Position numbers and translations under genes: made by a program
Notes under the pieces: generated by a model
Database searches by the model: none
The model's input: only the letters and a program-made list of their open reading frames with translations
What the model was told of the DNA's origin: nothing
Assembly (NCBI GenBank): GCA_004293485.1
Contig: RDYW01000050.1
Coordinates: forward strand, 1 to 42,576
Source: Sphingobacteriales bacterium
GTDB lineage: Bacteria > Bacteroidota > Bacteroidia > Sphingobacteriales > Sphingobacteriaceae
Length of the DNA stretch: 42,576 nucleotides
Direction: 5' to 3'
Part shown: positions 4,769 through 7,094 of the stretch, one piece after another
How positions within the stretch are numbered: the first letter of the stretch is position 1
Layout: each line of letters begins with the position of its first letter

Positions 4769-5707
4769 TTAAATATGCTTATCGTCGATCAATACTTGGT
4801 TCATGCTGCGTACGGCTTCGGCACTTTTGTTAAATGAGGCCTGCTCATCGGCACTTAGTTTAAAATCTAATATTTTTTCCCAGCCGTTTTTGCCCAATAT
4901 AACGGGTACTACTAGTGAAATATCGCTTTGACCATATTCGCCATTAAGCGATACGCCGCATGAAATTAGTTTTTTTTCATCGCGTACTATAGCTTCAACC
5001 ATGGCTGCTGTACCTGCACCTGGGGCATACCAAGCCGAGGTACCTATAAGTTTGGTAAGCGTGGCGCCACCTACCATGGTTGCGGCAATTATTTTTTGTT
5101 GCTGTTCGGGGCTTAAAAATTGGGTAACAGGTATGCTGTTCCAAGTTGCGTGTTGTATAAGGGGTATCATGGTGGTATCGCCGTGGCCACCTATTACCAT
5201 AGCGTTAAGGTCGGCGGGCGAGCATCCAAGTTCTTGGCTTAAATAATACCTAAACCTTGCCGAATCTAATGCACCGCCCATACCTAAAATACGTTCTTTG
5301 GGTAAGCCCGAAGTTTTTAGGGTTAGGTAATTCATGGTATCCATAGGGTTAGATACCACAATAATAATGGTGTTGGGCGAGTATTTTAATATGTTTTCGG
5401 TAACCGATTTTACAATGCCTGCATTGGTTCCTATAAGTTCTTCACGTGTCATGCCTGGTTTGCGGGGTAAGCCCGATGTTATTACTACCACTTGGGAGTT
5501 GGCGGTAGCAGCATAATCGTTTGTTACGCCTTTTATTTTAGTATCAAACCCTAATAAAGCGGCGGTTTGCATCATATCAATGGCTTTTCCTTCGGCAAAA
5601 CCTTCTCTGATATCTAATAAAATTAATTCTTCGGCTAATTCTTTTCTGGCAATATTGTCGGCACAGGTAGCACCTACGGCTCCAGCACCTATTACGGTAA
5701 CTTTCAT
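4769..5707 (-). CDS. mdh: Malate dehydrogenase (LDH-like type)
   Basis: NAD-dependent malate dehydrogenase of the TCA cycle, interconverting malate and oxaloacetate. The 312-residue protein starts with the nucleotide fold VIGAGAVG and has an aspartate (D32) at the end of the second strand, which indicates NAD rather than NADP. The mobile loop LPRKPGMTR carries the two arginines R82 and R88 that select a dicarboxylate, distinguishing it from lactate dehydrogenase (Gln at the first position). The catalytic pair is D148 and H175 (GGHGDTTM). The gene is a single unit: 314 bp upstream and 318 bp downstream lack genes, and a hairpin 200 bp downstream ends the transcript. Confidence 0.97.
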   Translation of the reverse strand: MKVTVIGAGAVGATCADNIARKELAEELILLDIREGFAEGKAIDMMQTAALLGFDTKIKGVTNDYAATANSQVVVITSGLPRKPGMTREELIGTNAGIVKSVTENILKYSPNTIIIVVSNPMDTMNYLTLKTSGLPKERILGMGGALDSARFRYYLSQELGCSPADLNAMVIGGHGDTTMIPLIQHATWNSIPVTQFLSPEQQQKIIAATMVGGATLTKLIGTSAWYAPGAGTAAMVEAIVRDEKKLISCGVSLNGEYGQSDISLVVPVILGKNGWEKILDFKLSADEQASFNKSAEAVRSMNQVLIDDKHI

Positions 5708-5967: not shown

Positions 5968-6003
5968 AAATGCCAATGTTATTATAAAATAACATTGGCA
6001 TTT
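5968..6003 (-). terminator. Rho-independent terminator of the tRNA-Cys / small-protein unit
   Basis: A perfect 15-bp stem (5968-5982 with 5989-6003) and a 6-base loop, containing the core TGCCAATG/CATTGGCA. On the minus strand it is followed by T-rich sequence (six T, G, six T). It starts 18 bases beyond the stop codon at 6022, the standard position for terminating the transcript of the 57-residue protein gene. Confidence 0.88.
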
Positions 6004-6021
6004 AAGGGTATTAAAATAAAA

Positions 6022-6195
6022 TTAACCTTTGGCTACTTCGGCCAATATAGCGTTGTTTTTTACAACTTGGCTATGTTTAGGCTCGGTTGAGCGGCTACCG
6101 TTTTCGATATTGGTAGCGTTTTTTAAAAACTGTACTTCTAAGCGAGATACGGTTTTATTTCTTCTGTCTTTTCTTTTTAAACGTGTTACTGCCAT
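6022..6195 (-). CDS. 57-residue basic protein, function unknown
   Basis: A small ORF read on the minus strand: it begins MAVTRLKRKDRRNK, continues with a VSRLEVQFLKNATN segment and ends ILAEVAKG. The N-terminal third is strongly basic (arginine/lysine-rich, no acidic residue except one Asp), suggesting contact with RNA or the ribosome; the rest is more neutral. I believe small proteins with this kind of N-terminus recur in Bacteroidota, but I cannot name a family and it is not a ribosomal protein that I recognise. It is supported as a real gene by its position: its ATG is 26 bases after tRNA-Cys on the same strand and a strong terminator follows 18 bases after its stop. The antisense open frame across it is less credible. 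Confidence 0.75.
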   Translation of the reverse strand: MAVTRLKRKDRRNKTVSRLEVQFLKNATNIENGSRSTEPKHSQVVKNNAILAEVAKG

Positions 6196-6221
6196 AATAT
6201 TTTTTTTAATTGTTACTGTTG

Positions 6222-6292
6222 AGGTCGAGAGCGGATTCGAACCGCTGTAGAAGGTTTTGCAGACCTCTGCCTAGCCACTCGGCCACTCGACC
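6222..6292 (-). tRNA. tRNA-Cys (anticodon GCA)
   Basis: On the minus strand the acceptor arms GGTCGAG and CTCGACC pair over 7 bp, the D-arm is GCC...GGC, the anticodon loop reads CTGCAAA (anticodon GCA) and the T-arm is GCGG-TTCGAAT-CCGC. The base after the acceptor stem is T, the expected U73 discriminator of tRNA-Cys. CCA is not encoded, so the cca product, also in this window, must add it. A perfect -7 box lies 18 bases upstream. Confidence 0.96.
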
Positions 6293-6309
6293 TTTTTATT
6301 TTAAGTTTG

Positions 6310-6317
6310 CAAAAGTA
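6310..6317 (-). promoter_or_regulatory. -7 box for tRNA-Cys and the 57-residue protein gene
   Basis: The minus strand reads TACTTTTG, a full match to TAnnTTTG. It ends 17 bases before the first tRNA base, giving a short tRNA 5' leader. No TTTG at the -33 position is visible. It lies in the gap between trmH-like (stop at 6342) and the tRNA, so the unit has its own promoter. Confidence 0.5.
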
Positions 6318-6341: not shown

Positions 6342-7094
6342 TTATTTATCTAAATTTCTTTGTATTTCGGCACAAAATATTGCAGCCGCAACGGCAACAT
6401 TTAACGATTCGGTACTTCCTTTACCGGGGATGGTTACTGGGTGAGTTATAAATGGCAATAAATCAGGTGATATACCTTTGCCTTCGCTACCTAAAAGTAA
6501 AAAAGCAGCATTTTTCCAAGTGGTATGGTATATATTTTTCCCTTGCAATAACCCCGCATACACAGGTAGTTTACACTCGACTAAAAGCTTTTTTAAATCG
6601 GTATAAATTATTTTAACTTGCGAAAGCGCCCCCATAGTAGCTTGCACTACTTTAGGGTTGTAGGCATCCACAGTATCGGCCGAACAATATATATGCCTGT
6701 AGCCAAACCAGTTGGCAGTGCGTATAATGGTGCCTAGGTTGCCGGGGTCTTGCACACCATCAAGCAATATATGTATTTTAGCTACTTGGTTTGTAAGAAT
6801 AGTGTGGCTTGTTGGCGCTTTTACCAAAGCTATAATACCCTGTGGGTTTTGTAAAGCCGATATTTTTTTTAATTCTTGTTCGTTTATTTCTAATATTTTG
6901 ATATTTTGGGGTAAATTTGGCAATTGTATAGCTATTTCTGCGGTAGTAAAAATAGTATCTATATTATAATCGGAATGTATAAATTCTAAAATTGATTTTA
7001 ATCCTTCAACCATAAACAAACCCTGTTGTTTGCGGTATTTTTTGTGTTGAAGGCTGTTAACTAAACTTATTTGCGACTTTGAAAGCATATACAT
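6342..7094 (-). CDS. TrmH-family (SpoU) RNA 2'-O-methyltransferase
   Basis: A SPOUT-superfamily methyltransferase that transfers methyl from S-adenosylmethionine to a ribose 2'-OH in rRNA or tRNA. The 250-residue protein has an N-terminal substrate-binding domain (LVNSLQHKKYRKQQG...VEG, about 11-31) and the three SPOUT motifs: DPGNLGTIIRTANWFG (116-131, catalytic Arg 125), LLLGSEGKGIS (199-209) and PGKGSTESLNVAVAAAI (223-239), which builds the trefoil knot. The substrate cannot be told from sequence; it is nearer the RlmB/RNA-methylase group than to TrmL, which lacks the N-terminal domain. Start is at 7094 or 7088 (both ATG, in frame); either overlaps the divergent tamL start. Confidence 0.92.
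   Translation of the reverse strand: MYMLSKSQISLVNSLQHKKYRKQQGLFMVEGLKSILEFIHSDYNIDTIFTTAEIAIQLPNLPQNIKILEINEQELKKISALQNPQGIIALVKAPTSHTILTNQVAKIHILLDGVQDPGNLGTIIRTANWFGYRHIYCSADTVDAYNPKVVQATMGALSQVKIIYTDLKKLLVECKLPVYAGLLQGKNIYHTTWKNAAFLLLGSEGKGISPDLLPFITHPVTIPGKGSTESLNVAVAAAIFCAEIQRNLDK

Follow-up and report, generated by a model that had tools for sequence, protein, structure and literature searches.

A compact unit of tRNA-Cys and a conserved small basic protein gene in the Sphingobacteriales is probably transcribed as one RNA

The window analyzed here, a 42,576-nucleotide stretch of a draft Sphingobacteriales genome (contig RDYW01000050.1), carries a tRNA-Cys gene closely followed by a 57-codon open reading frame (ORF) for a small basic protein. 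This compact tRNA-Cys/ORF unit is real and order-wide, and in it the transcript of a housekeeping RNA apparently also encodes a protein that probably binds RNA. It is proposed to be a dicistronic tRNA–mRNA unit encoding a ribosome-associated RNA-binding protein, an explanation that, taken as a whole, has in our estimate slightly better than an even chance. Should this hold, a gene conserved throughout an order would be expressed only through tRNA maturation, and the unit would offer a natural test bed for how mRNA supply is linked to the processing of tRNA in bacteria with no reliance on Shine-Dalgarno sequences. A search limited to the open-licence literature found no description of the unit or its peptide. 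The tRNA–mRNA unit is apparently undescribed, the arrangement itself being of a known type.

Organization of the unit

An earlier note on this DNA had placed a -7 box, a tRNA-Cys, a 57-residue ORF, and a terminator within 350 bp, and all of these parts were confirmed on the minus strand between 5968 and 6317 (Table 1). The 26-base gap that it gave between tRNA and ORF matches the tRNA end set by Rfam, and the ARAGORN end gives 25 nt. The -7 element (6317-6310) agrees with both TANNTTTG and the refined TAHHTTTG of PMC6847099. No TTTG box at -33 was evident by eye upstream of the tRNA-Cys; this element is weak in Flavobacterium johnsoniae according to the same paper (PMC6847099). CCA is not encoded in the tRNA-Cys, and CAA follows the discriminator base. 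The Rfam scan returned nothing but the tRNA above the gathering score, and the tRNA-Cys had one BLAST match in its own genome.

Table 1. Features of the tRNA-Cys/ORF unit and its flanking genes in the window
Feature	Position	Strand	Basis or remark
-7 promoter element TACTTTTG	6310..6317	-	Sequence; sole such motif of the tRNA-ORF unit
tRNA-Cys (GCA)	6222..6292	-	Rfam RF00005, 61.7 bits; ARAGORN end at 6221
Short A-rich leader from tRNA to ORF	6196..6221	-	A at -3, -6, -12, and -13 largely conserved in 78 units
57-codon ORF plus stop, small basic protein MAVTRLKRKDRRNKTVSRLEVQFLK...	6022..6195	-	ORF translation
Codons 6-14, TTA AAA AGA AAA GAY AGA AGA AAY AAA	6154..6180	-	Near-frozen synonymous sites
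Intrinsic terminator (16-pair stem, 4-nt loop, T tail)	5968..6003	-	
SpoU-type RNA methylase gene, flank of the unit	6342-7094		Pfam
Malate/lactate dehydrogenase-family gene, other flank of the unit	4769-5707		Pfam

Conservation and coding character of the ORF

A contig scan yielded 306 relatives of the ORF, including those of Pedobacter, Mucilaginibacter, Sphingobacterium, and Olivibacter (Sphingobacteriales). Eighty were kept, and in 80/80 loci the reading frame is intact from ATG to stop, with lengths of 54–59 residues. With profile A1, which comprises 48 of the 81 sequences, every genome searched in the window's order proved to contain the ORF (300/300, from 17/17 genera); these genomes were at least 90% complete and all of one family, which has further, less complete genera. 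Every listed row shows a single A1 match per genome, save one genome with two.

Rates like those of non-coding DNA, which the earlier note had named as the argument against its ORF, were not found. The pN/pS between the window copy and its eight closest relatives (L001–L008) is 0.061–0.194, and the median over 1064 pairs is 0.36, a weak number because the distant pairs are near-saturated at synonymous sites. Residues 1–26 are the most constrained part (median pN/pS of 0.19 vs. 0.47 elsewhere in the ORF). Among the 59 columns of the alignment of 48 sequences, 19 are invariant, and 12 of these fall in residues 1–14. Third positions vary over the rest of the ORF outside codons 6–14. By this substitution pattern, the 57-codon ORF is a conserved protein-coding gene.

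Linkage to tRNA-Cys across the order

The tRNA-Cys lies directly upstream of the ORF, 14–42 nt before the ATG, in 77/80 loci, and in the other three (L016, L025, and L056) the contig ends 6–44 nt before the ATG. A second set of loci, in which some species are common to the first, gave the same linkage in 57/57, and the conservation and tRNA-Cys linkage that the earlier note had put forward for checking both hold within the order. A tRNA match was obtained in 134 of the 149 class genomes searched; of the tRNA-Cys loci in such genomes, 30 were read, and the ORF was present in 5/5 of the window's family and 0/25 elsewhere.

The unit is kept together while the neighbor genes change: a SpoU methylase gene and an Omp85 gene were each found near it in 61/80 loci (54 of the 69 longest), and a malate dehydrogenase gene in 1/80. 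In the genome of the window, profile A2 matched only the tRNA-borne gene, with no second version, and in 11 family genomes no second match of the A2 search was better than E 0.05.

Promoter, leader, and terminator

The 45 nt ahead of the tRNA contain TAnnTTTG in 78/78 units (77 loci and the window), at -21 to -28 in 77 of them and at -38 in one, with a background of 110/6659 windows of 35 nt; a promoter motif also precedes the tRNA in the 57/57 further loci. Between the tRNA and the ATG, the motif occurs in 0/78 units. Behind the ORF, a terminator-like hairpin is present in 78/78 units vs. 14/348 control windows, and a terminator lies between tRNA and ORF in 0/78. The layout of a tRNA–mRNA dicistron, as defined by motif matches and not by mapped starts, is present in all 78 units, and the self-contained character that the earlier note had seen in the window extends to all of them. 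With its sole promoter motif ahead of the tRNA and no intervening terminator, the sequence strongly implies cotranscription of tRNA-Cys and ORF, as the earlier note had also proposed.

The leader carries A at -3 in 62/78 units (G in the rest), at -6 in 72/78, at -12 in 74/78, and at -13 in 65/78. In F. johnsoniae, A at these four positions is a positive determinant of translation (PMC6847099), and such a favorable leader suggests that the ORF is strongly translated.

In the proposed mechanism, which bears out that of the earlier note in its outline and would still have to be proven, a strong sigma-ABfr-type promoter would give one transcript containing tRNA-Cys, a leader of about 25 nt, the ORF, and the terminator. 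Maturation of the tRNA, by RNase P in front and, since CCA is not encoded, probably by tRNase Z at the 3' cut, would free a short mRNA whose leader already holds favorable Bacteroidota translation signals, allowing strong translation. The 54–59-residue basic product would use its first ~25 residues as an RNA-binding helix, and use of the tRNA-Cys promoter would place its synthesis under growth-linked control of the kind that serves stable RNAs. The sequence itself shows the parts and their conservation, one promoter motif, one terminator, coding selection, and the shared N-terminal segment; we infer joint transcription, RNA cleavage, strong expression, and the binding of the protein to RNA and ribosome.

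Cousins in other Bacteroidia families

The first ~25 residues of the protein are common to a wider group, here called cousins (HHalign 96.4%, E 1.3e-9, residues 1–25 of both profiles), a match to be read with the caveat that short Lys/Arg-rich segments can align by composition. The N-terminal signature of the wider family is MxVTxLKRK, with reciprocal matches and a profile match that starts at Met1. Three families (f8, f9, and f10) have a cousin of 47–107 residues in which KPVxKNVDxExxK mostly follows the shared segment. Further cousins, of 45–181 residues and with other C-terminal halves, occur in f65, f98, f100, and f105; that of f78 is more doubtful, and f88 is known from search matches only. 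The 181-residue cousin of f100 (L244, 1501-2046 on its strand) consists of the N-terminal segment and a long Lys/Ala-rich tail.

Chance matches were removed from both searches: 6/25 matched genomes (L095, L100, and L103–L106) in the first search outside the family and 12/37 (E 0.006 or worse) in the later cousin search. Of the 39 genomes matched by the cousin profile, 23 lie outside f1, f8, f9, and f10, and 14 of these 23 loci were read, none of them from f88. The signature pattern was found in 46/395 genomes vs. 7 for the reversed control, its single matches in f5, f6, f59, and f87 being probably due to chance. At E 0.01, the cousin profile had no match in 208/247 class genomes; by this search, the ORF protein is not detectably universal as core ribosomal proteins are.

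The cousins appear to have promoters of their own. TAnnTT[T/C]G lies within 70 nt of the ATG in 26/27 cousins vs. 38/964 control windows (of 28 cousins in the test, L240 was left out because of a start that could not be aligned with the others); L249 lacks the motif, and that of L257, at -70, may be chance. Inspection of about 1.5 kb around the cousins revealed no tRNA-Cys, either in 14 loci of f8, f9, and f10 or in 14 of the other cousin families; two of the latter have a tRNA-Leu on the opposite strand.

In the f8, f9, and f10 loci under study, a HisS gene stands beside the cousin in 11/14 (L138, L140, L141, L098, and L143–L149; by motif, with Pfam tRNA-synt_His for the one tested), and L145 has a Metallophos_2 gene opposite the cousin. 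The other three of the 14 have a beta-eliminating-lyase-type gene instead of HisS (Pfam for L142). The cousins of L241, L250, L254, L257, and L258 lie just 3' of a pyridoxal-dependent decarboxylase-like gene, called by Pfam Orn_Arg_deC_N for L254 and by eye for the others.

Because the cousins have their own promoter motif and no tRNA-Cys nearby, the tRNA-Cys link is, on this comparison, a lineage-specific mode of expressing the protein and not its function. The functional coupling of protein and tRNA that the earlier note suggested is weakened accordingly by the cousins: judged from them, tRNA-Cys is not a general requirement of the protein, and a special bond between the two is not supported. 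The simplest history would be that one gene came behind tRNA-Cys in this order and took its promoter. The protein family is spread over several Bacteroidia families, using its own promoter elsewhere and the tRNA-Cys promoter in the window's order, and the cousin comparison would present a gene that moved between promoter types.

Database, structure, and ribosome comparisons

The protein family is without a name in the libraries searched. The window protein drew no match from Pfam, NCBIfam, or PADLOC, individual sequences among the 48 reached no better than E 0.017 in Pfam and NCBIfam, and PHROGs gave one match at E 0.2 and no useful hit. A defence or phage link was rejected on the PADLOC and PHROGs results.

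AlphaFold predicts for the window protein a helix at residues 5–28, a flexible middle, and a helix at 43–56, with moderate confidence (pLDDT 72.9, pTM 0.32), and for a cousin the same first helix (mean pLDDT 82.5). A fold search with either model found no match in the PDB. Neither the protein alone nor its profile matched a PDB sequence, in a copy that includes the Bacteroidota ribosomes 7jil (F. johnsoniae) and 9i5t/9i5v/9i5x; the cousin profile gave one chance match at E 1.3. The 9i5t/9i5v/9i5x entries represent another ribosome that resembles those of Bacteroidota and contains DUF4295 as well as a chain of the bS22 type; no paper naming 9I5T was found in the open-licence literature. The bL34 of 9i5t is unlike the 30 bL34 sequences of the window's family, and neither Bacteroidota ribosome in the PDB seems, from such sequences, to come from that family.

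Two small proteins of Bacteroidota ribosomes were tried as candidates. The chain 7jil_4, named '50S ribosomal protein L38', matches DUF4295 (PF14128), which identifies DUF4295 as bL38. The window protein has no match to PF14128 or 7jil_4, and DUF4295 is a separate gene in 5/5 family relatives (G635, G690, G002, G080, and G099), all of which carry the ORF too; bL38 was therefore rejected. Across the genomes tested other than that of the window, DUF4295 was present in 10/10, five of them family members (L193, L195, L196, L199, and L201; the others are L194, L197, L198, L200, and L202). The draft genome of the window itself gave no DUF4295 match, which is probably an assembly gap. The identity with bS22 was likewise rejected, as protein and profile searches with E up to 10 list none of 7jil_5, 9i5v_10, and 8fmw_V; these chains were confirmed among the PDB sequences searched, a 30-residue chain being a hard target. 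The Pfam model PF08213 (COX24_C) reaches its cut-off in 0/10 Bacteroidota genomes and therefore cannot serve as a bS22 test here. The bS22 protein may be under-annotated in Bacteroidota.

Possible function of the protein

Since the protein is short, basic, family-wide, and conserved from residue 1, and has a favorable leader and codons like those of ribosomal proteins, the chance that it is ribosome-associated, and perhaps ribosomal, may be put at about one half. With bS22 and bL38 as precedents, it makes a concrete candidate for a ribosomal component that has escaped notice. A fuller version of this reading falls a little short of even odds: the protein would be an undescribed component of ribosomes or of their assembly in some Bacteroidia, anchored by a helix that starts at residue 1 and ending in a C-terminal half specific to the lineage. 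Its mRNA would exist in this order only as the 3' trailer of tRNA-Cys, making tRNA maturation obligatory for expression.

The codon usage was compared with that of bL34 from the window's family (30 genomes). In the ORF, TTA at L6 and AAA at K9 are found in 81/81 sequences, and AGA in 81/81 at R8 and 80/81 at R11; this freeze of codons 6–14 persists in loci of up to 49% GC and is absent in GC-rich cousins. In bL34, AGA is found in 30/30 at R12 and 29/30 at R39, while other Arg codons vary, and AAA is found in 21/30 at both K11 and K15, the TTA at L6 and AAA at K9 of the ORF being stricter. The freeze in codons 6–14 of the ORF, which had looked like a further RNA signal, thus has a similar though weaker counterpart in the Lys/Arg runs of bL34. 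Much of the freeze may be a general codon habit of Lys/Arg runs.

The basic N-terminus, which also fits non-ribosomal RNA- or DNA-binding proteins, counts against the ribosomal reading. A non-ribosomal basic protein, such as an RNA chaperone, a nucleoid protein, or an RNase-associated factor, for which the tRNA promoter is merely convenient and strong, is less likely but deserves serious weight. It would account for the absence of the protein from every ribosome structure of the PDB copy, for the 208/247 sampled class genomes in which it was undetected, and for C-terminal halves that differ between families, which is unusual for a core ribosomal protein. However, a single copy in nearly every genome of the order, a codon freeze like that of ribosomal proteins with a favorable leader, and a basic conserved segment beginning exactly at residue 1 are all expected of a small ribosomal protein, if not exclusive to one.

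An action on tRNA itself, for example in the maturation or quality control of tRNA-Cys, would turn the linkage into a functional feedback loop and would fit the finding that, wherever upstream sequence is available, the linked tRNA is always of this one isoacceptor. We consider it improbable, given that the cousins share the N-terminal segment with no tRNA-Cys nearby and that tRNA-Cys stands without the ORF behind it in 25/25 loci of other families. In addition, the ORF has no Cys codon, so attenuation by Cys-tRNA is impossible inside it. A regulatory 3' trailer RNA with an incidental ORF, similar to the rtT RNA, would explain the strong hairpin ending the tRNA trailer and the near-frozen synonymous sites, but is very improbable in view of the low pN/pS, the variable third positions over the rest of the ORF, the start, frame, and stop kept in all 80 loci, and the protein segment kept in cousins that lack the tRNA.

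Comparison with known systems

The ribosome-associated reading invites comparison with two small proteins that had gone unnoticed. Like bL38, the ORF product would be a small lineage-specific protein of Bacteroidota ribosomes, but it has no sequence match to bL38. Like bS22, an analogue of mS38 found in Flavobacterium and Borrelia, it is very short and rich in Lys and Arg; in contrast, bS22 chains have 28–30 residues (MPSGKKRKRHK... in 7jil_5). A bS22 would be expected to bind in the 16S pocket of h2/h27/h44/h45. In PMC10618245, bS22 is described as not annotated in Borrelia until it was found in the ribosome, and bS22 and bL38 are both reported as not annotated in the Borrelia genome (PMC10618245).

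The arrangement of the unit has its own precedents in the likeness and difference it bears to bacterial tRNA operons. Genes of the translation apparatus are cotranscribed with tRNA genes in operons of the thrU-tyrU-glyT-thrT-tufB and trpT-secE type. There, as proposed here, a protein that serves translation or export is expressed from the promoter of a tRNA; those operons carry EF-Tu or SecE, whereas the present protein belongs to no described family among those searched. In Escherichia coli, the tyrT operon encodes the protamine-like protein tpr and gives rise to rtT RNA, a 3' trailer RNA. As in the unit described here, a tiny ORF for a basic protein stands close behind the tRNA gene in tyrT-tpr; the work of Altman et al. 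1981 and of Bosl & Kersten 1991 is cited in PMC11623569. The tyrT-tpr operon differs in its tRNA and its phylum, and the ORF described here shows clear coding selection and is present in 300/300 genomes of the order.
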